Under the pieces are notes generated by a model, which was not told where the DNA came from, made no database searches, and saw only the letters and a list, made by a program, of their open reading frames with translations. 55,167 bases of DNA. It comes from Bacteroidota bacterium. GTDB taxonomy: Bacteria > Bacteroidota > Bacteroidia > Bacteroidales > JAIFNL01. Positions 39,568 through 55,167 of this stretch are shown here, piece after piece. Position numbers and translations under genes: made by a program. Within the stretch, counting starts at the first letter, position 1. Every line of letters begins with the position of its first letter. Location: the NCBI GenBank assembly GCA_020047755.1, contig JAIFNL010000003.1:1-55167 (forward strand), in the 5' to 3' direction.

Positions 39568-41821
39568 TTAATTTGTAATTACTGCATTTACTGGGCAAAT
39601 TTGTTTACAAGCATCGCATTTTACACATTTCTCATTATCAACTACATGCAACTCATAAGGTTTGTGTAAAATAGCCTGAGTTGGGCAAACTTGTGCACAT
39701 TTTGTGCAGCCAATACACTCATTAGTAATGAAATACTGGACTAAATTGACACATTTTCCGGTTTTACACTTTCCGTTGATGTGCTCAATATATTCATCTT
39801 TAAAATATTTTAAGGTTGATAATACCGGATTAGGCGCTGATTTTCCTAAGCCGCAAAGACTACCTTTTATTGTGCTTTTTGCTAGATTTTCAAGCATTTC
39901 CAAGTCTTGCAGTTTGCCTTTTCCCGAAGTGATTCTATTTAAAATTTCGAGCATTTGAGTAGTCCCAATTCTGCAAAAAGTACATTTCCCGCACGACTCA
40001 TTTTGTGTGAACGACAGAAAATATTTTGCAATGTCCACCATGCAATCGTCTTCGTCCAAAACAATTAAACCGCCAGAGCCCATCATAGCACCAACTTTGC
40101 TAAGAGATTGGTAATCAACTGAAATATCGGACATTTCGGCAGGAATGCAGCCCCCCGAAGGACCACCAATTTGAACAGCTTTAAATGCTTTGTTGTTAGC
40201 AATTCCGCCGCCTATTTTTTCAACTATCTGCCTGATAGTTATGCCCATAGGGACTTCAATTAAGCCTCCCCGTTTTATTTTTCCGGCTAAAGCAAAAACT
40301 TTGGTACCTTTGCTATTTTCTGAGCCAATGCGAGCAAAAGCGGCTGCTCCTCGTTTTATAATCCAAGGCACTAATGCCAACGTTTCGGTATTATTTATTA
40401 AAGTTGGTTTTTCCCACAAACCTTGCTCGGCAGGGTAGGGTGGTCGCATACTCGGATAGCCTCTTTTGCCTTCTTCAAAAAGTTCAATTTCTAGCGAAAA
40501 TTTGCTTCCCAAAATAGTTGTACCTACTAAATTAGCTTCTTTACAAAGAGCAAGCGCATTTTTAATTCGCTCAACAGCAAGAGGATACTCAGCTCTAATA
40601 TAAAAAAGACCTTTGGTTGCACCAACTGCAAAAGCTGCAATCAACATCCATGAACGCGCCAGGGTCGCCTTCGTCGCCGTTGCAAATAATATACTTGGTG
40701 TCGGAATTTATGTTTTTCACAATTTTCCATTTTGTGCCCGTCGGAAAACCTCCGCCTCCTCGTCCACGCAAGCCACTGTTATCAATAATTTCGATGATTT
40801 GCTCAGATGAATATTCGTTCAGGCATTTTTCAAAAGCTTTAAAACCACCCAAACGACGATATTCTTCTAAGTTAGTAGGGCTAATTTCACCTCTATATTC
40901 TGTTGCTATATTTATCTGACCATCAAGGAATTCCGAAACCGGAGTGTCGCGTTTGTTCGAAGCATAACGCCTTACTGATTTTGGCAAATCTTGGACTATT
41001 TTTTCCTCTAAAAAACTGAAAAAATTACTTTTAAAACGATGAAAAAGATTTTTCGATTTAAAATGCTTTCTTATAATTTGGTTTACTTCTTCTGGTTTTA
41101 TTTTAGAATAAAAAACGGGCAATTCGCCTTGTTTATGTACTTCTAAAAGAGGAACTTGATTGCAAATTCCTACGCAACCTACTTGTTTTACATCAACAGA
41201 TATTTTATTCTCAAAAAGAGTTCTTTCTAGCTCATTTTTAACATCTTGGCTGCCGCTCGCCACGCAACACGAGCCTAAACCCACGCGTACTTCACCTTGT
41301 GAATTTGCAACTGAATCGAAATTTGCTATTCGCTTTGCTTTGGGGTTGTTTTTTGCAGATAGAAAATCAGCTAAAATATTTGCTATTCCATCAGTTTCAA
41401 CGTGTCCATAAGTTGTATTATCTATTTGAATAACAGGCGCAATAGTGCAGCATCCAAGGCAAGCAACTTTGTCGAGTGTAAATAATTTTTCGGCATCTGT
41501 ATCTTCATTTTCAGCTATTTTCAATTCTCGTTTAAAAGCATCGTACACACGCATTGCTCCTTTTACATGACAGGCTGTGCCCACGCAAACCTTTATAATA
41601 TGCTCACCTACAGGCTTATGTCGAAATTGAGAATAAAAAGTAGAAATTCCATAAATTTGTGCCGGACTTATTTCTGTATTTTCGCAAACATATTCCAAAG
41701 CCTCTTGAGGCAAATAGTTAAATTCATGCTGAATAGCTTGTAAAATAGGAATAACTTTATTTTTAGTTTTCCCCTTTTCCTGAATTATTTTTTCTACTAT
41801 TTTTCTACTATTTTCCATCAT
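39568..41821 (-). pseudogene. NuoE-NuoF fusion (HndA/HndC-like NADH dehydrogenase/diaphorase with C-terminal 2x[4Fe-4S] ferredoxin), split by a frame-breaking deletion; ORFs 40595-41884 and 39568-40647
   Basis: NuoE part (CVGTACHVKGA...CLGCCTIAPVIQI), NuoF part (SGLRGRGGGGFPTGTKWKIVKN...CNGDEGDPGAFMD | MLIAAFAVGATKGLFYIRAEYPLAVERI...CGKCTFCRIGT...CIGCTKCAQVCPTQA...CVKCDACKQICPVNA). Continuity broken near 40645-40651. Confidence 0.85.
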
Positions 41822-41893
41822 TTTATATAGAATATGTTCAATACTTATAATTCTAATTGCTTTTAATTTTTTTTGAAAAATCAAGAAAAATTG

Positions 41894-43669
41894 CTACTTT
41901 CCAATGCAATATAAATTTTCTTTGCCACGAATATAAATTCGACCATCAGCAAAGGCTGGCGTACAGGTTGAATTTTCGCCTAGTGGATTTGTTGCTATTA
42001 AATTGAACTTATCACTAGCAATAAAAATATGTGTATTACCCTTCATATCAATAAGATAAATGCTATTATTGACCAAAACAGGCGAGCCATAAAAGCCAGT
42101 AGAAAATTCATGTTCCCAAAGTTTTTTACCGTCTTTTGAACCATAGCAAGCTACTGCACCATAGCTAGTTATCAAAAAAAGATAGTCTTTGGTAGCTATT
42201 GGGCTTGGCACATCTGACATATATTCGTCGCTTTGCCAAAGAATTTCAGGAGTTTCGCCTAATTTTATTGCCGATAAATTTGCATACTCATTGGTTGCAA
42301 ACACCACGCCATCAGCATAAGCAGCTGATGGACCTACTTCACCAAAGATACAATCAATTTTCCAGTTTTCTTTTCCTGTGTAAGGGTTATAGGAGGCTAC
42401 ATAAGGGTCAGCAACTAGAATTACTTCCGTTTGTTTTCCGGTAGAAACTACAATGGGTGATGCCCATGAAATTTTTACTTTGCGTGGTGTGCTCCACACG
42501 GTCTTTCCTGTTAATATATTCAATGCCATTACTTTAGCTTCCGATTTTTGGTCATATTGCACAATTAATTTGTCTTGAAAAAGCATAAGCGACGACGAAT
42601 GCCCGTAATGATTGCCCATAACTCCTAAATTGCGAGCCCAAACGCGATTTCCTTCCATGTCAACAGCTACTACATCGCCATTTGAAAAAATAGCATATAC
42701 TCTCCGCCCATCAGTTGCCAGTGTGGGGGCAGCATGTCCGGTATCGGCAGTAACTTTAGGCGCTGATGAAGGCGAGCCTGCTACGTTTTTTACTTGATGA
42801 GTCCAAAGAAGTTTTCCGGTATTTCTATCAAAGCAATAAACTTCCCGTTTTGTTTCGTCAGCACCGCTTACAAAGAGTTTATCGCCCCAAATAATGGGCG
42901 AATTATAACCTTGCAAAGGTGTTTTAATTTTCCAAAGTATATTTTGTTTGCTTGTCCCATTCCATTTTGTGGGAACATTTTTCTTGTAAACCACCCCATT
43001 TCCGCCAATTCCTCTAAAAGTTGCATAATTTTCGGCTACCTCTTTTGCTGTTGGAAACGGAGTTTGCTCAATCGCTAGCGAATCAATATTTTTTAATGTA
43101 TCAGAAAGTTCTTCTGCTGCTAATTCTTCGTTTTCATTTACCTGGTTATTTTCTGCTGAAAGAGAATCAGAAGGCAGGCTATCGTTTGCTATATTTTGCA
43201 CAAAAGTATTTTCTAACTGCTTGTGCGACAGAAATGCAGAGATTAAAGCCAGCATTACAAGGCTTAAACCACCAAAAATGAGCCATTTGCGAGCTTTTGC
43301 TTGAGCAAAAAATGCTTCATCTTTTTCAAGATATTCTACTTCGCGCTTTCCCGAAAGTAAAATTTGCATAGCTATAACAAACAGAGCCACAGCTGCTAAC
43401 AACAAATACCCACCCATGCGAATTTGCCACTGACTTGTAAAATAAGCTTTTCGCGAAAGCAAATCTATGCTGCGAATCTCCTCGCGAAGTGCCTCATTGT
43501 TTGGGTCTTCATTGAGCCTTTGCATTAAATTTTCAATTATTTTTGCATTTACAGGATCAAGTTGCGAATACTGTATGTAATTAACTATGAGTAAAATAGC
43601 TATAAAAACAGCGAAAAATGCTGTTCCATAAGCTATTTTTTTCCAAAGTTCGTTGTTTTTTGAATTCAT
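41894..43669 (-). CDS. Membrane-anchored PQQ-like beta-propeller protein
   Basis: N-terminal TM helices; blades CFDRNTGKLLWTHQVKN, AVDMEGNRVWARNLG, ALNILTGKTVWSTPRKV, SYNPYTGKENWKIDCIF, CYGSKDGKKLWEHEFS. Confidence 0.88.
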   Translation of the reverse strand: MNSKNNELWKKIAYGTAFFAVFIAILLIVNYIQYSQLDPVNAKIIENLMQRLNEDPNNEALREEIRSIDLLSRKAYFTSQWQIRMGGYLLLAAVALFVIAMQILLSGKREVEYLEKDEAFFAQAKARKWLIFGGLSLVMLALISAFLSHKQLENTFVQNIANDSLPSDSLSAENNQVNENEELAAEELSDTLKNIDSLAIEQTPFPTAKEVAENYATFRGIGGNGVVYKKNVPTKWNGTSKQNILWKIKTPLQGYNSPIIWGDKLFVSGADETKREVYCFDRNTGKLLWTHQVKNVAGSPSSAPKVTADTGHAAPTLATDGRRVYAIFSNGDVVAVDMEGNRVWARNLGVMGNHYGHSSSLMLFQDKLIVQYDQKSEAKVMALNILTGKTVWSTPRKVKISWASPIVVSTGKQTEVILVADPYVASYNPYTGKENWKIDCIFGEVGPSAAYADGVVFATNEYANLSAIKLGETPEILWQSDEYMSDVPSPIATKDYLFLITSYGAVACYGSKDGKKLWEHEFSTGFYGSPVLVNNSIYLIDMKGNTHIFIASDKFNLIATNPLGENSTCTPAFADGRIYIRGKENLYCIGK

Positions 43670-43699
43670 TTTAAAAATATTTTGTATTTTATTTTACTG

Positions 43700-44946
43700 C
43701 TATTCTTTTTCATTTTTTATTGTTATTGGGCAAAAATCCATGCACCTTCCACAGCTAAAACACTCGCCCTTATTGGGTGTATAATCTGTTCGATAACGAT
43801 AAATGGACAAGCCTGCAAGCATTAGTCCAAAAACTAAACCCATAAAACCGCCTACAAGCATTCCGCCCATTTTAAACTCTTCAATTTTATCAGCAGCTTC
43901 TTTGAAAAGCTCTTTTTCTGTTTTGCCCGAAGCTTTAAAACCTTCTACATCTACGTTTTCGGGTAAATTTTCGGGATTTTCTTTTGCTATTTTATTATAC
44001 CTGAAAACTTCTTGAGCTAATTGTACTTTTGGGTTTACTTTTGCTAAAGTTTCATTCATTTGCCTTCCTACATATCCACCTACAAAAATTAATGCCGGAA
44101 TAATTAATGCTAAAATTAAAAATTTACGTGCAAGCACTGTTTTATCTTCCTTAATATTAAGCTTTTCTGGCTTGTCAATTGCTCCAAACGGACATGAATT
44201 TTCGCACAAGCGACATTGTATGCAAGTAGTAGGCGTTATTTGCATGTGATATTTTGAAAAGCGGCTAAACCAGTTCAATATCACGCCGTAAGGGCAGAAA
44301 AAACGGCAATAAGGGCGAGCAATAAACATACCGGCAACAAGAAAAATAGCACCAATTATAAACATATAAAATTTTGCATCGAGCCTTCACTTTCCGTAGC
44401 CGCGTAAAGTACAGCTAAAGCCAAGTAAATATAAGGAATTACACGCAAAAGAGCTTGTGTCCATTTTTTTAACTCAATGGGCTTAAAAATTACTAAATCT
44501 TGAATTGCTCCCAAAGGACAAACGCCAGCACAAAAAGTTCTTCCGTAAAAAAGCGTATAAATTAAAGGCAAAATAAAAAACAAAACGGCTGTTAAAGGAA
44601 TAGAATAATTGGGATTGAAAAGGGCTAATGTGATATTTTGAATTGCTCCAATAGAACAAACGCAACCTTCGCGATAAAAGCCAAAATATAAAAGTGAAAA
44701 TATTGATAACCAAAATATTCCACGCCTAGAGCGTTTTTTCACAACCAGATATGATGCTAAAGAAAGAGCTGCTAAAAGAACAAAAACATCGAGGTATTCT
44801 AATGCTAAAATACGTGTAGGTGATTGATGCAAAGGAGGTTGTGTATGCCCACTTTCAAATTCCGGCTTAGGAAAACGCTGCGCAAAAGCGATTGTTGTTT
44901 GTAGCAAATTTATTGCTAAAAATATAATTAAAATAAGTTTTTTCAT
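43700..44946 (-). pseudogene. NosR/NapH-like polytopic 4Fe-4S membrane protein, split by a frame-breaking deletion; ORFs 44356-44946 and 43700-44365
   Basis: YREGCVCSIGAIQNI, GRTFCAGVCPLGAIQDL | ARPYCRFFCPYGVILNWFSRFSKYHMQITPTTCIQCRLCENSCPFGAI, CFSCGRCMDFCPI; frame broken near 44380-44388. Confidence 0.8.
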
Positions 44947-44969
44947 TTATTTATATATAATCTATTTTT

Positions 44970-45545
44970 TTAACTAAAGTCAGCTCCTTCTCCGCTAAAA
45001 CCTTTGAAAATATTGGGCTTGCTTGCAGGAACTCTTGAGTAAGCATCTGCTGGACAGTCAATTGCAATGGCACATTGATTGCAATTCACACAAATATCAT
45101 GTCGCACTTGCAACTGCAACGAGCCATTGCCAAAAGCATCGCAACCAGCTACGCATTTTCCGCAGCCAATGCACAATTCTTCGTCAATGTTATATTCAAA
45201 AAATGGGTCTTCTACATAAGTTCGTTTAATTGCATTGGTCGGACAAAGCTGATTTTCAGCAGCTGTGGTAAGATTTTTTGTTTCGGGCTTAAAATAGCCG
45301 CCGCACAAATCGCAATAGCCGCACATGTCGTGTACGTGTACAACTTTTACAGCAGAAGGTGTTAAAACACAAGAAGTTACACATCTTCCGCATTGTGTGC
45401 ATTTTGCAGGATCGAGCTGCCATACCAAATCATCGGAAAGCACATTTTTTAACAAAGCACCACCTAAACCTACTAAGCTCAAGGCTAAAGAAAAACGGAC
45501 ACCTTTGTTAATAAATTCTCGTCTATCTATTTTATCATTTGCCAT
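44970..45545 (-). CDS. Tat-type multi-[4Fe-4S] ferredoxin-like protein
   Basis: Twin-arginine-like DRREFINKGVRFSLALSLVGLGGALL; CTQCGRCVTSC, CGYCDLCGG, CIGCGKCVAGC, CVNCNQC. Confidence 0.88.
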   Translation of the reverse strand: MANDKIDRREFINKGVRFSLALSLVGLGGALLKNVLSDDLVWQLDPAKCTQCGRCVTSCVLTPSAVKVVHVHDMCGYCDLCGGYFKPETKNLTTAAENQLCPTNAIKRTYVEDPFFEYNIDEELCIGCGKCVAGCDAFGNGSLQLQVRHDICVNCNQCAIAIDCPADAYSRVPASKPNIFKGFSGEGADFS

Positions 45546-45579
45546 AAATTTATATTAGTAAATTATAAGTATAAAAAAA

Positions 45580-45780
45580 TTATAATTTTATATTGTTTTT
45601 TCTAAAAGAATTTGCTTGTTCTAAATTGCATGATTTATTTATTTTGCAATTTTTACAAACAAAATCTAAGTCGCAAGCTTCATTGTTTTCATCTTTTAAA
45701 ATCAAAAATCCAGCAAGTGCTGCCAAAACAGAAAATAAGCTGTAACGCATTATTTTTTCAAAAAACTCTCGTCTATTCAT
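45580..45780 (-). CDS. Small Tat-type Cys-motif protein (66 aa)
   Basis: NRREFFEKIMRYSLFSVLAALAGFLI then CDLDFVCKNCKINKSC; 34 nt downstream of the ferredoxin start, co-oriented with the cluster. Confidence 0.6.
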   Translation of the reverse strand: MNRREFFEKIMRYSLFSVLAALAGFLILKDENNEACDLDFVCKNCKINKSCNLEQANSFRKNNIKL

Positions 45781-45846
45781 GCTTAAAAAAATTATAAATC
45801 AATTAGTTGTAACTTTTTTAAAATAACTTCAATGCAATTATTATTA

Positions 45847-46812
45847 TTATTCAAAGATTAAAATTTTCCTTTTTTTCGTGTCAAGTGCAAAGATTCTATC
45901 TTTTGAATCAATCGCTAAATCTATACCTTTTGTTCCTTTTTCAAAAAAATTACTTCCTGCTACAAGGCATTTAAAATCACCATTTGGCGAATGAATTTTT
46001 ATTCTTTCCAGCCCTTTTTCGCTAGTAACAAAATCGCCGTTTGAAAGCATTGCAATGTGCGATGGATTGCAGCAACCGCTAAAACCATCTAAGCCCATTG
46101 ATGTTTTTTTCCATGTAGAAAAAACCTCGCCATGCTCATCAAAGGCAGTAAATTCGTGCCTTCCAGTGTTTACTGCCCAAAGCTGTCCTTCACGACCTTT
46201 GCAAATATCAAAGTATGGGCTTGGAATAATAAAACCGTGAAACTTTTCTGTTTTCTTTCCAATTTCTTGTAACATATTGCCATTAAAGTCAAGTTTATAA
46301 ATCAATTTATTTCCCGCATCGGCAACTAAAATAGTTTCTTGTTCCAAAAGAATACTGGTAAAATGTGTTTTTTTCGGAAAGTTAGAAAAAGTTTTTAGCA
46401 ATTTTCCTTTTTTTGTAAAAATTTCAATCCTATTTTTGTAAGCAATAAAAATGCTATCTTCTTGATTAACTGCTATTGAACTTATATTACTTGAAACTTT
46501 AATTTCATATTTTTTTTTACCTGTTGTTTCAAAAATAGCTAAAAATTTATTTCCGCCTACATAAAGTTCGTCTTTGGGTGAAATGCAAATTGTGAAAGCA
46601 CTATCGTAATTTAATTGAATTTCAGAGTTTTGTGAGAAGCATAATTTTGTTGTATCAATCTGTTTATATTTATCAATATTAAATTTATAGCTATTTATTT
46701 TTTCTTTTTCTGAGAAAAACAAATCAAATAGCATAAAAACTAAAACAAGAAGCAATAAAATTGTTGCAAAAGAGACTATAATTTTATTTTGTTTCATTAT
46801 TTTATAATTCAA
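45847..46812 (-). CDS. NHL-like/6-bladed beta-propeller protein
   Basis: Signal anchor; ICISPKDELYVGGNKFLAIFETTGKKKYEI, LVADAGNKLIYKLDFNGNMLQEIGK, GTKGIDLAIDSKDRIFALDTKKRKILIFE. Confidence 0.75.
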   Translation of the reverse strand: MNYKIMKQNKIIVSFATILLLLVLVFMLFDLFFSEKEKINSYKFNIDKYKQIDTTKLCFSQNSEIQLNYDSAFTICISPKDELYVGGNKFLAIFETTGKKKYEIKVSSNISSIAVNQEDSIFIAYKNRIEIFTKKGKLLKTFSNFPKKTHFTSILLEQETILVADAGNKLIYKLDFNGNMLQEIGKKTEKFHGFIIPSPYFDICKGREGQLWAVNTGRHEFTAFDEHGEVFSTWKKTSMGLDGFSGCCNPSHIAMLSNGDFVTSEKGLERIKIHSPNGDFKCLVAGSNFFEKGTKGIDLAIDSKDRIFALDTKKRKILIFE

Positions 46813-46825
46813 AATTGATAATTAA

Positions 46826-47383
46826 TTATTTTATTTTTCTAATTGTTTTATTGTCGCCATTGATTCGTATTTTATCGAAATTCACATTTTCAGCATTCCA
46901 GATTTGATAAGTAAGTCCGACACAGCAATTACAATCGCAATAACTGCCATAAGGAATGTATTTTAAATCAATGAGTTCGCCTATTAATTCTAGCTCGCAT
47001 AAAAAGTCGAAACAACAGTTTTCTACAATTTGCAATTCTACAAAAAATAAGCTGTCTTGTTTGTAAAAACTAATATCAGAAACTCCTGTTTTTGTAAGTT
47101 TCTCGTAATCACCAGATTCTTTGCATTTTGTTAATTGAACTTTTTGCAAAAATAGCCCTTCAAAGGCAGCTTTTATTGTACTGCGTGTTTGTAAAACAGT
47201 TGTTCCGGCTAAAACGGACATGTTAAAATTGTTTGATTGATAGAGAATTGTATCAATTGTTTCGTAGCCTGAATTGGAATAATTTATGTGTAAGGTATCA
47301 TATTCTTGCGCAAAAAAATTTGCGGTAGAAAAAATTAAAATAAAATATAAAAAAATAGTTTTTTTCATAAATAATATTTTCAA
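46826..47383 (-). CDS. Secreted Cys-containing hypothetical protein
   Basis: Signal peptide; NCCFDFLCELEL...GSYCDCNCCVGLTYQIW. Confidence 0.65.
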   Translation of the reverse strand: MKILFMKKTIFLYFILIFSTANFFAQEYDTLHINYSNSGYETIDTILYQSNNFNMSVLAGTTVLQTRSTIKAAFEGLFLQKVQLTKCKESGDYEKLTKTGVSDISFYKQDSLFFVELQIVENCCFDFLCELELIGELIDLKYIPYGSYCDCNCCVGLTYQIWNAENVNFDKIRINGDNKTIRKIK

Positions 47384-47406
47384 TGATAAAATTTTACACT
47401 ATTAAA

Positions 47407-48834
47407 TTATTTTTTTTCTATATCAATGCAAATCATAGTTTTGGAATCGCGCAAAACCATTTTTCCGTTGGCAATAGCCAAAGGAGCCCAAGCATCGTGT
47501 CCTTCAAGCACTTGCGCTTGGTCTAATACTTGAAAACTCGATGTTGATAGTTTTGCAATAGTCAACATGCCATCATCGTTGAGTATGAAGAATTTATCGT
47601 CGGCAATAATGTAAGGTCCTAAGCCAAAGCGATATTCTTTGCCACTTGTCCAGAGCAAATTTTCGACATCTGATTGTTTGCAACAAACAAATTGGTTGCG
47701 CAAAGCACCTGCATCTTTGGGTAAAATACCGAAAATGAAGCCTTTATAAAATATTGGTGTTTGTTGCTCTGATGCCAAACCATCTTTAGGTTTGAAATCT
47801 TGTAATATACTGACAGTGAATTTATTGCCATTTGCTTTCAATTTAAACAAAATAGAACCAGCTCCATAACCTGCTGTCATAAAAATTTTTCCGTTTTCTA
47901 GCACTAATGGCGAAGGAGCGACCACTGAGGGCGCAAAATCTTTTAAACTCCAAAGAATTTCGCCTACATTGTCCCCGTCGGCTGCAACTCCAATAATTCC
48001 GCCTACTGCAGCGTACACATACATTTTTCGTCCACCCAAAAACATTGGCATAATAGACGAATGTGACATTTTGAAATTATCAGGGTTCGGCGTTTTCCAA
48101 ATTACGTTTCCTGTTTTGCAATCTACTCCTATTAAAAGAGAAGTTCCTGAAGGTGCAAAAATGGCTATATTGTTCTCAATAATAGGGCATTGACCTGTGT
48201 ACCAAAATGGAATTTCGCTTTTAAATTCTTTTACTAAATCAATACCCCAAAGCAAATCACCATTGTGTGGATTTGAGCACATTGCGTGCCCTTTTGGTCC
48301 TAGCGTAACTATGAAACTATCAGTAATTGCTGGCGTTGTACGCGACATTCCATGATTTCGTTTCACGTGATTTTTGTACGAACGCTTCCAAATTTCTTTG
48401 CCGTCGATTAATGAAAAGCATCGCAGCGCATCAGATTTTTTAGTTTCTTCATAATCAAGAATATATACTTTCCCATTGTAAATGACAGGAGCCGAATGAC
48501 CTTCGCCTAATTTGTGTTTCCAAAGTATTTTTGCTCCATTTTCTGGAAATTTATCAATTAATTTGACTGTTTCTTTGTTTTGATTATCGAAATCTGCCCC
48601 TCTAAAACGTGTCCATTTTCCTGTTAAATTTGACGAAAACTCTTCATACTTCTCAAATTTTTCGCCTATTTTAACTACTTCTTTTGTTAATGATGAACTA
48701 TCTGGTCTGTTATCCATTCCTGGTAAACTTTTCTGAAAATCGCTTACCGGATTGTAAAACCACCAAAAAAGAGTAGTACTAAATGCAAGTAAAATGAGAA
48801 TAAATAGTATATTTTTATGTGAAAAAAAAGTCAT
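47407..48834 (-). CDS. PQQ-like beta-propeller protein
   Basis: KWTRFRGADFDNQNKE, CFSLIDGKEIWKRSYKN, CSNPHNGDLLWGIDLVKEF, GVDCKTGNVIWKTPNP. Confidence 0.88.
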   Translation of the reverse strand: MTFFSHKNILFILILLAFSTTLFWWFYNPVSDFQKSLPGMDNRPDSSSLTKEVVKIGEKFEKYEEFSSNLTGKWTRFRGADFDNQNKETVKLIDKFPENGAKILWKHKLGEGHSAPVIYNGKVYILDYEETKKSDALRCFSLIDGKEIWKRSYKNHVKRNHGMSRTTPAITDSFIVTLGPKGHAMCSNPHNGDLLWGIDLVKEFKSEIPFWYTGQCPIIENNIAIFAPSGTSLLIGVDCKTGNVIWKTPNPDNFKMSHSSIMPMFLGGRKMYVYAAVGGIIGVAADGDNVGEILWSLKDFAPSVVAPSPLVLENGKIFMTAGYGAGSILFKLKANGNKFTVSILQDFKPKDGLASEQQTPIFYKGFIFGILPKDAGALRNQFVCCKQSDVENLLWTSGKEYRFGLGPYIIADDKFFILNDDGMLTIAKLSTSSFQVLDQAQVLEGHDAWAPLAIANGKMVLRDSKTMICIDIEKK

Positions 48835-48920
48835 ATTCTATTTTTTTACTACAAAAAATAATCTTCTGATTTTAAAATATAATATTAAAAAAATCAGGTA
48901 ATTATTCTAAACTAAAGAAA

Positions 48921-50186
48921 TTATTTCTTTTGAATATCATAAACCATTACTGCGGTTGCATGCCGAACATAAAGTTTTCCGTTATCTATCACTAAATGAG
49001 CCCAAAAAGGACCTTTGCCTAAAGGAACTTTAAACGAACTTACTACTTTAAATTCTTCGGGTTTTGCTTCTATAAGCCCAATGTTTCCTCGCTTTTCGTC
49101 AAGACAATAGAGCATTCCTTCGGCAGAAATTATAGAACCTTTATTTTCCCATTTTTCTTCGTACATTACTTTTCCGCTGTCCCACTCCAAGCAAGTCCAA
49201 TTTCCCATTCCATTGTTTAACCAATTAGCTCCATAAATATATTCACCGATGCGAACAACGCCTCCATGATGCACATCGAGAGTGGAATCTACCCACATAA
49301 GTGATACATTATCAGCCTTTTCGCTTAATTTTAGTTTCACGCTTTTGTGGTTGTATCCGCTAGTGATAAAAAGCTCGCCTTTGTAATAAATAGGCGTATT
49401 TGCTTGAACAGCAGCCTTCCAATCGCCCAAATATGCAACATATTTGCTAAAATTGAAAGTCCATAAAATTTTACCGTCGGAAGGTTGAATTCCAAAAATG
49501 TAATCCTCGGTAGCTGAAACAATTTGCTTTATATTGTTGTGAATAACTAACTTGGGCGAAATATAAGAAGGTTTGTCTTTTAAACTTTCCGATTTCCAAA
49601 TTAAATTACCGGTTAATTTATTCAAAGCAATCATTGTTGTTTGTTCGCCACCCGGCAAAAAGAAAACTTTATCTTCATCTATTAAAAGTGATTCGGAAAT
49701 GCCCCATTCGCCAAAAGTTCCTCCAAACTCTTCACTTGCTTTTTTTTCCCAGATTATTTTTCCATTATCGGAATTAATGCAAGCCAAATCGCCTTTGCCA
49801 CTTGAAACGTAAATACGATTTCCTTCGATAGTGGGGGTTGCTCTACTATCTGAAAATGAGTCAGTCCAGCCACGCCCAAAGGTAGTTTGCCAGCGAATTT
49901 TACCATTCTCGTCTAAAGCCACCAAAACGTCCATCGTATCTTTAAGTCCTGTTACATAGGCTTTTCCATTTGCAACGGCAACAGAGGAATAACCTGTTGG
50001 TAACGAGTCAATTGACCAAATTAAGTTAGGTCCATTTTCTGGCCAAACTTTTAATAAATTTGTTTCGCGTGTATATACGCCTGTTCTGTCAATTCCACGC
50101 CATTCGCTTATTACCTGGGCAGAAACAGTAGAAAAAAGAACTAGAAATGCGAAACTGAAGGCAGATTTGAATATTAATTTGAGAGT
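48921..50186 (-). CDS. PQQ-like beta-propeller protein; reading frame extends upstream of ORF-track start (49934) through a signal peptide but has no recognisable start codon
   Basis: Reverse translation of 49935-50186 continues in frame: TLKLIFKSAFSFAFLVLFSTVSAQVISEWRGIDRTGVYTRETNLLKVWPENGPNLIWSIDSLPTGYSSVAVANGKAYVTGLKDT|MDVLVALDE; in-frame TAA at 50187-50189. Confidence 0.8.
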   Translation of the reverse strand, partial: TLKLIFKSAFSFAFLVLFSTVSAQVISEWRGIDRTGVYTRETNLLKVWPENGPNLIWSIDSLPTGYSSVAVANGKAYVTGLKDTMDVLVALDENGKIRWQTTFGRGWTDSFSDSRATPTIEGNRIYVSSGKGDLACINSDNGKIIWEKKASEEFGGTFGEWGISESLLIDEDKVFFLPGGEQTTMIALNKLTGNLIWKSESLKDKPSYISPKLVIHNNIKQIVSATEDYIFGIQPSDGKILWTFNFSKYVAYLGDWKAAVQANTPIYYKGELFITSGYNHKSVKLKLSEKADNVSLMWVDSTLDVHHGGVVRIGEYIYGANWLNNGMGNWTCLEWDSGKVMYEEKWENKGSIISAEGMLYCLDEKRGNIGLIEAKPEEFKVVSSFKVPLGKGPFWAHLVIDNGKLYVRHATAVMVYDIQKK

Positions 50187-50203
50187 TTAAAATACAAAAA
50201 AAA

Positions 50204-51487
50204 TTATTTTTTTGCAATATCATAAACCATAAGTGCAGTTCCATGTCTGATGTACAAACGTTTATTGTGAATAACACTATGTGCCCAGTGCTGCTTTTCG
50301 CCATAAGGAACTTTAAATGAGCTAATTAAATTATATTTATCGGCTAAAGGTTCAACTAAAGCTACCACGCCAGCTTCGTCGTAGCAATAAAGCATTCCGT
50401 CTGCAAAAATGATATTTCCAATTTTTAGCATTTTCGATGCGAAGAGTTGCTTTCCTGTATTCCAATCCAAGGCATACCATTTTTTATTGAAATCGCCTGA
50501 GCCATAGATAATTCCATTGTGTAATACAACTCCTCCCATTTTATTGTCCAGTGAGTCATTTCGCCAAACTTCGGTAACTGATTTTGCGTCGGTCGCAAGT
50601 TTTAGCATTACTCCACCTTTTCCGTAACCACTTACACAATAGAGCATTCCATCTTTAAATAGAGGAGTATTTGCATGAACGGAATATTTATTGGGGTGAG
50701 AAAAATCCCATAATATTTTACCACTTTCTACGTCAAGACCTATTATAAACGTTTGAGTCATAGTTATTAATACTTTTTGACCGCCATATTCTATTATTAA
50801 GGGCGAATTATAGGCGCTAATTTCGCCTTTCCCCGTACTTTTCCAAATAACTTTTCCGGTATTTTTATCAAAAGCAACGATATTTGCATCTTCGCCTCCT
50901 ACCGTACAAAATAATTTATTTCCATCAGCAACAAGGTTTTCTGTCATTCCCCATTTTGTATTTCTGGCACCAAAATCTTGAATTAAATCTACGCTCCAAA
51001 GTTTGTTGCCTGTTTTTGAATCCATGGCAACTAAAATGCCTTTTGCACTCAAAATGAATAACTTATCGCCATCTATTAGTGGTGCTGAGCGAACGCCTTC
51101 GTAGCTATCGAGCCATTCTTTGGCGTATATTTTTTTCCAGATTATATTTCCAGAATGGTCAAATGCAATGATAAAGCCATCTTGAGTTTGTGCATCTGTT
51201 CCGGCAGCATAAACGAAATTGTTTGTTACAGCAACTGCTGCATGACCATCACCAAGCCCAAGGTATTTCCATGCCAGTTCGGGACCTGCGTCATTCCATT
51301 TTTTTAACAGCCCTGAATCTTTATACTTGCCATCGCGATTAACCCCTCGCCATTGAGAAGTTTGCGTAGCATCAAAATTAGCTAAAGAAGCATTAGATGC
51401 TTCCATTTCGGTCAGATTACCACTTGATTGAGAATTGCAATTTGTGATGAACACAAATAACATGAGTATAGAAATAATATTTTTCAT
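50204..51487 (-). CDS. PQQ-like beta-propeller lipoprotein
   Basis: Lipobox ITNC; QTSQWRGVNRDGKYKDSGLLKKWNDAGPELAWKYLGLGDGHAAVAV; ends RHGTALMVYDIAKK. Confidence 0.88.
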   Translation of the reverse strand: MKNIISILMLFVFITNCNSQSSGNLTEMEASNASLANFDATQTSQWRGVNRDGKYKDSGLLKKWNDAGPELAWKYLGLGDGHAAVAVTNNFVYAAGTDAQTQDGFIIAFDHSGNIIWKKIYAKEWLDSYEGVRSAPLIDGDKLFILSAKGILVAMDSKTGNKLWSVDLIQDFGARNTKWGMTENLVADGNKLFCTVGGEDANIVAFDKNTGKVIWKSTGKGEISAYNSPLIIEYGGQKVLITMTQTFIIGLDVESGKILWDFSHPNKYSVHANTPLFKDGMLYCVSGYGKGGVMLKLATDAKSVTEVWRNDSLDNKMGGVVLHNGIIYGSGDFNKKWYALDWNTGKQLFASKMLKIGNIIFADGMLYCYDEAGVVALVEPLADKYNLISSFKVPYGEKQHWAHSVIHNKRLYIRHGTALMVYDIAKK

Positions 51488-52028: not shown

Positions 52029-53591
52029 ATGATAAAATTAAGAATTGATAAGCAGAATATAGAGGTTGAAAAAGGGAAAACTGTTTTAAAAGCTGCGCAA
52101 CAATTAGGAATTAAAATTCCAACTATGTGTTTTTTAGAAGGGTATTCAAATCACCCTTCGTGTATGCTTTGTGTTGTGAAAGATGTAAAAACCGGAAAAC
52201 TTTTTCCTTCTTGTGCTATGCCTGCGCAAGAGAATATGGATATTATTACATTTGATGAAGAAATTGAAATTGCACGTCGTGAAGCTTTGGAACTACTTTT
52301 AAGCGACCATGTTGGCGATTGCGAGGCACCTTGCAGACCTTCATGTCCTGCTTTTATGAATATTCCTAAAATGAACCGTTTGATTGCATCGGGAAATTTT
52401 GCTTTAGCACACAAAACGGTGAAAGAACATATTGCTTTGCCCCTTGTATTGGGCTATATTTGCCCTGCTCCTTGCGAAAAAGCTTGCCGACGAACGCAAA
52501 TCGACGATGCTGTTTCTATTTGCCAATTGAAAAAGACGGTAGCTATTGATGATTTTCAAAATAATCATTCTTTTTTGCCAGAAAAGAAAAAGAAATCAGG
52601 TAAAAAAATTGCTGTTATTGGTTCGGGACCGGCAGGATTAGCATCTGCTTTTTATATTTTGGCAGAAGGGCATGAATGCGATGTTTATGATAAAAACGAA
52701 AAAATAGGTGGAGCGCTAGCTTATGAAGTTCTTGAAAACCAATTACCTGCCGATGTATTATTACAAGAAGTGGAGTTAATTAAAAAATACGGTGCTAAGT
52801 TTATTTTGAATACTGAAATTGATAAAAATCGGTTTGAAAAGGAATTAATACCGAACTATGATGCAATAATTTTAGCAACAGGCGATTATTTTGGCTCTAA
52901 AATTGAAAATTTTGGGTTAGAAGAGAGCAAAAATGGAATTTTAGTTAATAAAAACAATTATGCAACTCAAAAAAAAGGCGTTTTTGCTTGTGGTAACATA
53001 GTTCGCTCGCGCCGAATGTCTGTTAATGCTGTTGCACAAGGCAGGATTGCCGCATTTTCGGCAAGTAAATTTGTAAATTCAGAAGATTTTACTCAGCCAG
53101 AGCGAATGTTTAATTCTAAGTTTGGGAAATTGAGAGAAGCTGAAATTGTTCAATATCAGAAAGAAGCGATAACTGACGCACGCCAAAAAACAGAAAATGG
53201 AAAACTTGGAAATTTAACTTTTGAGCAGGCTGTTATTGAAGCAAAGCGTTGCCTCCATTGTGATTGTAGGAAAGCTGACGATTGCAAATTGCGCATTTTT
53301 TCAGACCAATACAATGCAAGCCAAGCAAAATTTGCTTTTATCGAGCGCAAATCGCTGAAAAAATACTTTGAGCATGAACTGATTATTTACGAACCAGAGA
53401 AATGCATTCGTTGCAATTTGTGTGTTGATATTGCTCAAAAAGATGGCGAAAAAATAGGCTTAAGCTCAGTGAAACGTGGTTTTAGAGTCGAAATAAGCGT
53501 TCCTTTTGATAAAAATATGACACAAGCATTACAAATAGTTGCAATAAAATGCGCCAACGCTTGTCCGACAGGAGCTTTGTCTGTAAAATAG
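52029..53591 (+). CDS. 2Fe-2S ferredoxin / GltD-like FAD oxidoreductase / C-terminal Fe-S protein lacking an evident NAD(P)H Rossmann insert
   Basis: KIPTMCFLEGYSNHPSCMLCVV; CEAPCRPSCPAFMNIPKMN, CPAPCEKACRR; VIGSGPAGLASAFYILAEGHECDVYDKNEKIGGAL; GVFACGNIVRSRRMSVNAVAQGR; CIRCNLC, CANACPTGAL. Confidence 0.85.
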   Translation: MIKLRIDKQNIEVEKGKTVLKAAQQLGIKIPTMCFLEGYSNHPSCMLCVVKDVKTGKLFPSCAMPAQENMDIITFDEEIEIARREALELLLSDHVGDCEAPCRPSCPAFMNIPKMNRLIASGNFALAHKTVKEHIALPLVLGYICPAPCEKACRRTQIDDAVSICQLKKTVAIDDFQNNHSFLPEKKKKSGKKIAVIGSGPAGLASAFYILAEGHECDVYDKNEKIGGALAYEVLENQLPADVLLQEVELIKKYGAKFILNTEIDKNRFEKELIPNYDAIILATGDYFGSKIENFGLEESKNGILVNKNNYATQKKGVFACGNIVRSRRMSVNAVAQGRIAAFSASKFVNSEDFTQPERMFNSKFGKLREAEIVQYQKEAITDARQKTENGKLGNLTFEQAVIEAKRCLHCDCRKADDCKLRIFSDQYNASQAKFAFIERKSLKKYFEHELIIYEPEKCIRCNLCVDIAQKDGEKIGLSSVKRGFRVEISVPFDKNMTQALQIVAIKCANACPTGALSVK

Positions 53592-53640
53592 TTTATATTT
53601 CTATATTTCAGATACTTATTTTTAATTCTTAAAGAAAATA

Positions 53641-53862
53641 CTAGAATAAACCATTGAATTTTCTTTTTTTCCAATCGTCAATGATTTGTTTTACTTCATT
53701 TTTTCCAATTTCAAAAACCGAAGTTAGCCTGTCGAGGTTTAATTCGCTAGATATGAGGAGAATAATGTGAGCTTTTTTACGAGTTTCGATATTTTTACTT
53801 GTACGCATTATGTGGTACAAATTTTCTTTTTCAACTTTTTTTAGTTTTATTGAGGCTTCCAT
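53641..53862 (-). CDS. Small HTH protein, possibly a remnant of an IS630-like transposase N-terminus
   Basis: ETRKKAHIILLISSELNLDRLTSVFEIGKNEVKQIIDDWKKRKFNGLF resembles the N-terminal helix-turn-helix of IS630-type transposases. Confidence 0.45.
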   Translation of the reverse strand: MEASIKLKKVEKENLYHIMRTSKNIETRKKAHIILLISSELNLDRLTSVFEIGKNEVKQIIDDWKKRKFNGLF

Positions 53863-54066
53863 GACTTTTAGGTTTTAATTGTTAGTACTAAGTTTTATTC
53901 CTTTATTTGTAGCAAAATTACCCTCTTTTTTTACAATATACATCTGGTAATTTACTTAAAGAATCTTTTTCCTTTAATTTAGGTACTTTTACCTATTTTT
54001 TTTTTGAAGAGAAATTTGTTTGTTGTTATTTTTGCTATATTTAAGAAGGTCTTTAGTATTTTAAAA

Positions 54067-54103
54067 TTTGGAGATGTTTTTTTAGAAAAAAAAGATACTT
54101 TTG
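54067..54103 (+). promoter_or_regulatory. Possible Bacteroidota-type promoter for the rightmost propeller gene
   Basis: TACTTTTG at 54096-54103, TTTG at 54067-54070 (spacer 25, long). Confidence 0.35.
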
Positions 54104-54172
54104 TTTTTTAAAACTCTTTGCCATTTCTTTGTTTTTTTTACTACATTTTATACTTTAAAATTTAATTTTATA

Positions 54173-55167
54173 ATGAAAACTATAGTTGCTTTTATATTAT
54201 TTTATCTCTTTTCTGTGCCTCTTTTTGCACAAAGTAATACTTGTTGGCCCTCGTTTCGAGGGAATGTAGCATTGACTGGAAAAACGAGAGTTAATTTACC
54301 TGAAAACTTAAAATTATTATGGACGTATAAAACAGGAGATATTATTAAATCTTCGCCTATTTTTTGCGGAAAAAGTATTTTTGTAGGCTCCAACAATGGT
54401 TTTGTTTTTTCTATTTCTGCAAAAGGTAAATTGAATTGGAAATTTAAAGCAGCGAGTTCAGTGGAAGCGCCACCTTTGTATTTGCATGATATTGTGTATA
54501 TTAGCTCAAACAGTGGAATGCTTTATGCTTTAGATGCAAAAACAGGCAGCTTGAAATGGAAATATGAAACCGAGGGACAAATTTTAGGTTCAGCAAGTTG
54601 GACTTTTACCAAAGACTTGAAGAAAAAACTCATTTTGGTAGGAAGTTATGATTTTTATCTTCATGCTGTTGATTCAGAAACGGGTAAAGTCGTTTGGAAA
54701 TATGAAACTGATAATTTTATAAATGGAGCACCTGCTACTAGCGAAACTGCTGCAATTTTTGGTGGTTGCGACGGTTTTTTGCATTTGGTTAATTTAGAAA
54801 ATGGGAAAAAACAAAATAAAATAGAAATTGGAACTTACATTGCTTCTTCACCTGCCTATGAATTGGGAAAAGCCTATTTTGGAAATTACGATGGTGGTTT
54901 TTATTGCTTAGACTTGGGCTCTAAAAAAACGCTATGGAAGTACGAAGGAGCTGGCGGTTTTATTGGCTCACCGGCTATTGGTGATAATGAAATTGTCATA
55001 GGTTCGCAGGATAAAAATTTGTATTGTTTTGATAAAAAAACAGGTAAATTGAATTGGAAATTTCCAAGCTTAAAAAAAATTGATGCTTCGCCTATTATTG
55101 CCGGAAATAAAGTAGTACTCGCTTCTAAAGATGGAAGAGTTTATTTGCTTGATTTAAAGACTGGTAA
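54173..55167 (+). CDS. PQQ-like beta-propeller protein, truncated by window end
   Basis: ATG at 54173: MKTIVAFILFYLFSVPLFAQSNTCWPSFRGNVALTGKTRVNLPENLKLLWTYKTGDIIKSSPIFCG... repeated blades YALDAKTGSLKWKYETEG, HAVDSETGKVVWKYETDN, CFDKKTGKLNWKFPSL. Confidence 0.9.
   Translation, partial: MKTIVAFILFYLFSVPLFAQSNTCWPSFRGNVALTGKTRVNLPENLKLLWTYKTGDIIKSSPIFCGKSIFVGSNNGFVFSISAKGKLNWKFKAASSVEAPPLYLHDIVYISSNSGMLYALDAKTGSLKWKYETEGQILGSASWTFTKDLKKKLILVGSYDFYLHAVDSETGKVVWKYETDNFINGAPATSETAAIFGGCDGFLHLVNLENGKKQNKIEIGTYIASSPAYELGKAYFGNYDGGFYCLDLGSKKTLWKYEGAGGFIGSPAIGDNEIVIGSQDKNLYCFDKKTGKLNWKFPSLKKIDASPIIAGNKVVLASKDGRVYLLDLKTG

Follow-up and report, generated by a model that had tools for sequence, protein, structure and literature searches.

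The 520-aa protein encoded at 52029-53591 on the plus strand of the window (the whole 55,167-nt stretch of Bacteroidales DNA analysed here) is probably, with a likelihood that can be put at about 0.6, the BfuA subunit of a Bfu-type bifurcating or confurcating complex that lost its NADPH subdomain and now serves as an Fe-S wire. At the level of sequence the anatomy of such a wire is well established, comprising the deletion itself, its conservation among relatives, 18 Fe-S cysteines, an intact BfuCB partner in related genomes and a gene cluster that includes NapG- and NapH-like proteins. A Bfu core trades electrons with NAD(H) and with ferredoxin, and its BfuA subunit forms the link, in either direction, with a third substrate; many such substrates are known or predicted, and 17 BfuB clades are still without an assigned function (PMC9304861). 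In StnC, the electron path runs from NADPH to FAD, through Fe-S clusters in series, and then to the FMN of StnB (PMC10482914). A BfuA from which this known NADPH input site was removed, with the Fe-S wire kept and a membrane/periplasmic Fe-S module added, offers a testable new third partner for the Bfu family.

Architecture and distribution of the 520-residue protein

The reading frame has no internal stop, and its product is organized as follows:

52029-53591, plus strand: BfuA/StnC-like Fe-S protein without NADPH subdomain, 520 aa (ORF, Pfam, alignment, AlphaFold model)
52029-52319, plus strand: N-terminal NuoG/HydA-type [2Fe-2S] domain, residues 1-97, with C34, C45, C48 and C62 (Pfam Fer2_4; cysteines in 64/64)
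52320-52562, plus strand: GltD/DPD-type Fer4_20 domain for two [4Fe-4S], residues 98-178, with C98, C102, C106, C145, C149 and C153, K168 (StnC K170) and an extra C165 (Pfam, family alignment)
52596-52898, plus strand: N-terminal half of the FAD domain, residues 190-290, with GxGxxG at 198-203 and GG at 227-228 (Pfam, model, family alignment)
52884-52976, plus strand: deletion junction, residues 286-316, about 30 residues versus about 190 in full-length relatives (alignment, motif count)
52977-53078, plus strand: C-terminal half of the FAD domain, residues 317-350, with GN instead of GD (family alignment)
53223-53588, plus strand: C-terminal Fe-S region, residues 399-520, with C408/C411/C413/C419 and C459/C462/C465 plus C512 (alignment)

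Pfam placed Fer2_4 at residues 1-74, Fer4_20 at 98-173 and the best stretch of Pyr_redox_2 at 193-285, followed by the C-terminal Fe-S regions, and recognised no second dinucleotide domain in the protein. When aligned with StnC (8oh5_C) and the NfnA of Caldicellulosiruptor (9bov_A), residues 2-291 correspond to chain residues 4-292 and residues 272-517 to chain residues 421-671; the approximately 128 residues that are absent make up the whole NADPH Rossmann subdomain, and the two halves of the GltD-type FAD domain are joined directly. The segments "...FGSKIENFG" and "GVFACGN" are separated by 20 residues, somewhat fewer than the ~25 given in the sequence-only reading, whose central observation, that the usual second Rossmann motif of the NADPH region is missing from a frame that stays open, is borne out by alignment, Pfam, structural model and motif count alike. 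The AlphaFold model (mean pLDDT 73.5, rising to 81-96 across most of the FAD region) contains a single Rossmann-type domain, confirming the missing subdomain and revealing no cryptic second fold, and the PDB chains that it matches best are 8oh5_C, 9bov_A and 9n5v/9n5u_A. Taken together with the GGGNxAxD counts given below, this led to the rejection of a cryptic second Rossmann site, and the earlier statement that the protein has no obvious NADPH site agrees with the absence of the subdomain.

The GltD-like label first given to the protein had to be abandoned. The model of the GltD small subunit (TIGR01317) scores 147 bits against a cut-off of 448, and the NADPH domain that it requires is lacking; by alignment, fold match and phylogeny the protein is a BfuA/StnC derivative, with StnC and NfnA as its nearest relatives and a place in a clade separate from GltD.

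The family was assembled from profile-search matches in Bacteroidales genomes and from loci recovered in a contig scan, giving 64 distinct proteins of 480-550 aa; the profile search found the deleted protein in 57/393 Bacteroidales genomes, belonging to 37 of the 206 genera. None of the 64 distinct homologues has an insert corresponding to the NADPH subdomain, and the GGGNxAxD motif (GGGNxAMD) occurs in 0/64 of them versus 14/14 full-length Bacteroidales relatives. Whether close homologues share the gap, a point raised by the sequence-only reading, can thus be answered: every homologue found has it, so that it reflects neither chance nor sequencing error. In a tree rooted with GltD the deleted proteins group together as a single clade (SH-aLRT 99), next to which the full-length StnC-like proteins of Bacteroidales branch as sister group, a topology consistent with a single origin of the deletion.

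The source genome encodes the deleted protein as well as, on contig C120, a full-length StnC-like relative, and the two forms occur together in several genomes. Further BfuB-like cores were noted in the source genome on contigs C120, C94, C165, C274 and C127, the one on C120 lying beside the full-length StnC-like gene. In a phylum-wide draw of 396 genomes (E<=1e-100) the sole match was the window's own gene, and in one contig scan with exact peptide words the full-length matches were restricted to Bacteroidota, which is a weak test of absence elsewhere.

The 18 Fe-S cysteines (34, 45, 48 and 62; 98, 102 and 106; 145, 149 and 153; 408, 411, 413 and 419; 459, 462, 465 and 512) are present in 64/64 members, as is H94. 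K168, kept in 61/64, aligns with StnC K170, the unusual lysine ligand of the FAD-proximal cluster (PMC10482914). One helical turn away lies C165, which is specific to the clade (63/64), the corresponding residue being Asp in all 14 full-length relatives. The second ferredoxin cluster at the C-terminus is missing, likewise in the NfnA of Thermococcus sibiricus. On the alignment, the remaining clusters would correspond one by one to those of StnC.

A conserved redox gene cluster

In related genomes the gene belongs to a cluster with the conserved order PQQ_A, PQQ_B, NHL, NapG-like, NapH-like, TM-propeller, BfuC-BfuB fusion, BfuA, PQQ_C, glycosyltransferase, ABC ATPase and FtsX-type permease. BfuCB is the nearest recognised upstream gene in 54/64 loci and PQQ_C lies downstream in 55; the gap between BfuCB and BfuA is 10 nt or less in 31 of the 54 measured, including overlaps of -4 (ATGA). 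The last three genes, a glycosyltransferase, an ABC ATPase and an FtsX-type permease of ~1090 aa, are conserved beside the redox genes in L040:12763-18008 and its relatives. Two loci depart from the common pattern. In L100:8451-11051 (G588), BfuA and the downstream propeller are read in one frame of 867 aa through a hydrophobic segment, which may be either a true fusion, tethered to the membrane, or the product of a sequencing indel that hit the stop codon. L114:9731-11272 (G589) encodes a divergent, long-branch BfuA with no recognisable NapG, NapH or BfuCB nearby, the NapH gene being found on another contig.

The BfuC-BfuB (NuoE-NuoF) fusion of L040 comprises complete BfuC and BfuB parts according to Pfam: a 2Fe-2S_thioredx domain at 6-149 of the fusion (E=4e-52) for BfuC and, for BfuB, an N-terminal [2Fe-2S], the FMN/NADH domain, SLBB, NADH_4Fe-4S and a C-terminal 2[4Fe-4S]. 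Among solved structures it matches Nfn-type BfuB chains best (9bov_B with E=2e-207, 9n5u_B and 8oh5_B); the alignment spans BfuB from end to end, with the ferredoxin-like pair at the C-terminus covered as well, and cysteines of the bifurcation core are 95-100% conserved. A BfuA homologue with [2Fe-2S] and [4Fe-4S] domains is encoded beside BfuBC, as the Bfu family requires. Judged by its core, the complex is a member of the Bfu family, with bifurcation or confurcation as its predicted activity; judged by the absent NADPH subdomain of its BfuA, it is not an Nfn-Bfu transhydrogenase. The earlier proposal of a relay from NuoEF therefore holds in that a NuoEF-like gene is the conserved partner, yet this is no plain NuoEF and carries instead a complete BfuC-BfuB bifurcating core with ferredoxin-type clusters.

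The Fe-S partners that the same reading left unnamed are likely the NapG- and NapH-like proteins. Cysteines for four [4Fe-4S] are found in the NapG-like protein, which also has a twin-arginine-like motif in 29/34 sequences; its NapH-like neighbour, with two CxxxCP and two CxxCxxCxxxCP motifs that never vary, scores 53 bits with the NCBIfam NapH model, against a cut-off of 213. The NapH-like gene occurs in 69/393 Bacteroidales genomes, 56 of which also have the deleted BfuA, that is, in 56/57 genomes with the deleted BfuA versus 13/336 others (Fisher p ~5e-54, not corrected for kinship); in the one exception, G650, the deleted BfuA is present and no NapH match was found. This co-occurrence and the synteny suggest that BfuA docks on the NapH-like protein. 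A heme route was considered and rejected, CxxCH occurring in no cluster protein.

In the window the cluster is rearranged, and two of its genes are interrupted:

39568-41884, minus strand: BfuC-BfuB (NuoE-NuoF) fusion, the electron-bifurcating core, read here as two ORFs because 44 nt are deleted out of frame compared with L038
41894-43669, minus strand: membrane-anchored PQQ-type beta-propeller (TM-propeller)
43700-44946, minus strand: NapH-like membrane polyferredoxin, split here because 40 nt are deleted out of frame compared with L038
44970-45545, minus strand: NapG-like, Tat-type periplasmic Fe-S protein with Cys for four [4Fe-4S]
45847-46812, minus strand: NHL/propeller protein of the conserved cluster
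47407-48834, minus strand: PQQ-type propeller PQQ_B
50204-51487, minus strand: PQQ-type propeller PQQ_A
54101-55165, plus strand: PQQ-type propeller PQQ_C, directly downstream of BfuA and continuing past the window end

Relative to BfuA and PQQ_C (52029-55165), the block that runs from BfuCB to PQQ_A (39568-51487) has been turned around, and this inversion has placed the BfuCB partner on the opposite strand at a distance of 10 kb. On the BfuCB side, the junction of BfuCB with metallophosphatase and gamma-glutamyltransferase-like genes is the same in G002 (L154), a genome of the same genus; the inversion is therefore real, and misassembly was rejected as the cause of the inverted arrangement. 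Inverted repeats at its ends amount to just weak AT-rich pairs. The two short deletions lie within 40560-40760 (44 nt in BfuCB) and 44300-44480 (40 nt in the NapH-like gene), both on the minus strand, and this copy of the partner genes may be non-functional or misassembled.

The flavin site and its stepwise loss

GxGxxG is found in 64/64 members and GG in 63-64 of the 64, and since these motifs are retained FAD may still bind; its binding is probably still under selection in most members, where the flavin may still matter. The FAD-binding signatures recognised in the sequence-only reading are accordingly present, but the GD of the signature reads GN here, and nearly every member has Asn or Ser at this position: the Asp (equivalent of D323) is found in 14/14 full-length relatives versus 0/64 deleted proteins. 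The equivalent of StnC R239 (R201 in NfnB; the R238 equivalent) is likewise Arg in 14/14 full-length proteins versus 1/64 deleted ones. Moreover, at 70-80% identity of the Fe-S domains the mean identity of the N-terminal FAD half is 0.50 for the deleted and 0.69 for the full-length proteins, which means that the flavin domain evolves faster than in the full-length relatives.

In some lineages the loss has gone further. In L116 and L117, from one genus, most of the C-terminal FAD half is missing as well, in frame, and in six genomes (L142, L144, L145, L148, L149 and L152) the same cluster has, at the usual place, a BfuA of 327-366 aa with no flavoprotein domain. These flavin-less proteins keep 18/18 Fe-S cysteines, have Ile or Gln at K168 and carry a new Cys three residues before C145, making a CxxC (aligned at column 142 in 5/6 of them, one residue off in L148). 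It would appear that a standard cysteine replaces the lysine ligand once the flavin is gone. The same C142 arose independently within the flavin-bearing clade, in L111:2658-4244 (G480), together with K168V and C165R; the FAD motifs of this protein are degenerate (GG to GS, GN to SS). The remaining seven of the 13 genomes with a NapH-like gene and no deleted BfuA include five whose contigs end before the BfuA position, G002 with its inverted arrangement, and L150, where BfuCB has no adjoining BfuA. "Electron-transfer flavoprotein", the description originally proposed, captures the electron transfer and overstates the flavin, the catalytic residues of the FAD site being gone and six genomes having a BfuA with no flavin domain at all. 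The full-length protein and the forms without NADPH domain, without FAD C-half and without flavin make up a natural deletion series with which the roles of the flavin and of the lysine-ligated cluster of StnC can be probed.

Electron route, alternatives and known systems

In the proposed mechanism, a BfuA descended from, or sister to, the NADPH-dependent StnC/NfnA type would work with a BfuCB that exchanges electrons with NADH and reduced ferredoxin. Electrons would travel, in one direction or the other, between the BfuA clusters and those on the cytoplasmic side of the NapH-like membrane protein; beyond it the route would lead to the quinone pool, to the NapG-like Fe-S protein in the periplasm, or to both. 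The NADPH site has disappeared, in some lineages along with the flavin, and the wire's cysteines persist; a NapGH-like membrane module, rather than NADPH, would be the third partner. Outward flow (confurcation) is the likelier direction, being thermodynamically simpler. The leftover FAD fold would have lost hydride chemistry and be at most a one-electron relay or a structural remnant, which would explain why some lineages dropped the flavin domain entirely. Extended to its full form, the proposal is of an undescribed Bfu class in Bacteroidales, in which BfuCB confurcates NADH and ferredoxin, BfuA, having lost NADPH binding first and, in some lineages, the flavin later, sends mid-potential electrons via the NapGH-like module to the quinone pool or periplasm, and flavin loss is matched by a Lys-to-Cys ligand exchange; this is put forward tentatively, at slightly less than even odds. 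No published description of the cluster was found in the literature searched, most subscription journals being outside its coverage.

It could also be that the FAD is still a redox-active docking point, with loss of the NADPH subdomain exposing the isoalloxazine to the cytoplasmic ferredoxin domain of NapH or to a small molecule, such as a quinone, for electron exchange. The near-universal GxGxxG and GG, the confidently modelled FAD region and the retention in 61/64 members of K168, whose StnC counterpart serves the FAD-proximal cluster, all speak for such a role; the lost R238 and D323 equivalents, the faster divergence of the domain and the members of the same cluster that lack the FAD C-half or the whole flavin domain make it rather unlikely.

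A separate subunit binding NADPH or another nucleotide in trans, which would leave the complex a transhydrogenase, has a precedent in the extra third-substrate subunits that Bfu complexes often recruit (PMC9304861). It is nevertheless highly improbable, since the other products of the conserved cluster show no match to an NAD(P)-binding family, for which reason a donor of the NADPH domain within the cluster was rejected, and the full-length StnC-like protein of several genomes means that the NADPH function is not vacant. That the protein is a decaying, non-functional remnant of a Stn-type BfuA would fit the stepwise domain loss and the frameshifts in the partner genes of the window, but hardly the invariance of 18/18 Fe-S cysteines over 64 members and dozens of family groups, the conserved gene order and ATGA overlaps, or the Cys gained in compensation where Lys was lost, and it is about as improbable. 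As for a local deletion or assembly artefact in the source genome, other genes at the locus do carry short deletions, yet the same architecture recurs in 64 independent members, and this explanation was rejected as having a negligible chance of being right.

Among known systems, the closest to the Fe-S wire proposed here is StnC, the BfuA of the Sporomusa ovata Stn (Nfn-Bfu) transhydrogenase (8oh5_C; PMC10482914), which shares the N-terminal [2Fe-2S], the GltD-type Fe-S domain, the FAD-domain halves, the CxxCxC..C motif, the ferredoxin-like C-terminal cluster and the lysine at the FAD-proximal cluster, and whose partner StnAB corresponds to BfuCB. Unlike StnC, the window protein has no NADPH subdomain or FdhF-like C-terminal domain, lacks one ferredoxin cluster, has lost R239 and the Asp of GD and has gained C165; unlike in Stn, BfuC and BfuB are fused and the cluster contains NapGH-like and propeller genes. 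The NfnA proteins of T. sibiricus (9n5u_A), which likewise lacks one of the two ferredoxin clusters, and of Caldicellulosiruptor NfnABC (9bov_A) have the same domain order, but both retain the NADPH subdomain and larger C-terminal parts and have NADPH as their third substrate. GltD, NfnB (NfnL) and the N-terminal half of dihydropyrimidine dehydrogenase share Fer4_20 and the two-part FAD fold; in these the NADPH Rossmann subdomain is present, and the NuoG-type [2Fe-2S] and the C-terminal clusters are absent. A BfuABC core working with a membrane module has been predicted for the membrane-bound Nuo-Bfu and Mbh-Bfu complexes (PMC9304861), whose membrane modules consist of complex I-like or energy-converting hydrogenase subunits; the present cluster was found to have none of these. 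The module encoded here resembles instead the NapGH quinol dehydrogenase in combining, in one cluster, a Tat-type polyferredoxin and a membrane protein with CxxxCP and [4Fe-4S] sites; it differs in scoring far under the NCBIfam cut-offs and in being accompanied by neither NapA nor a cytochrome, the coupling being instead to BfuCB-BfuA.
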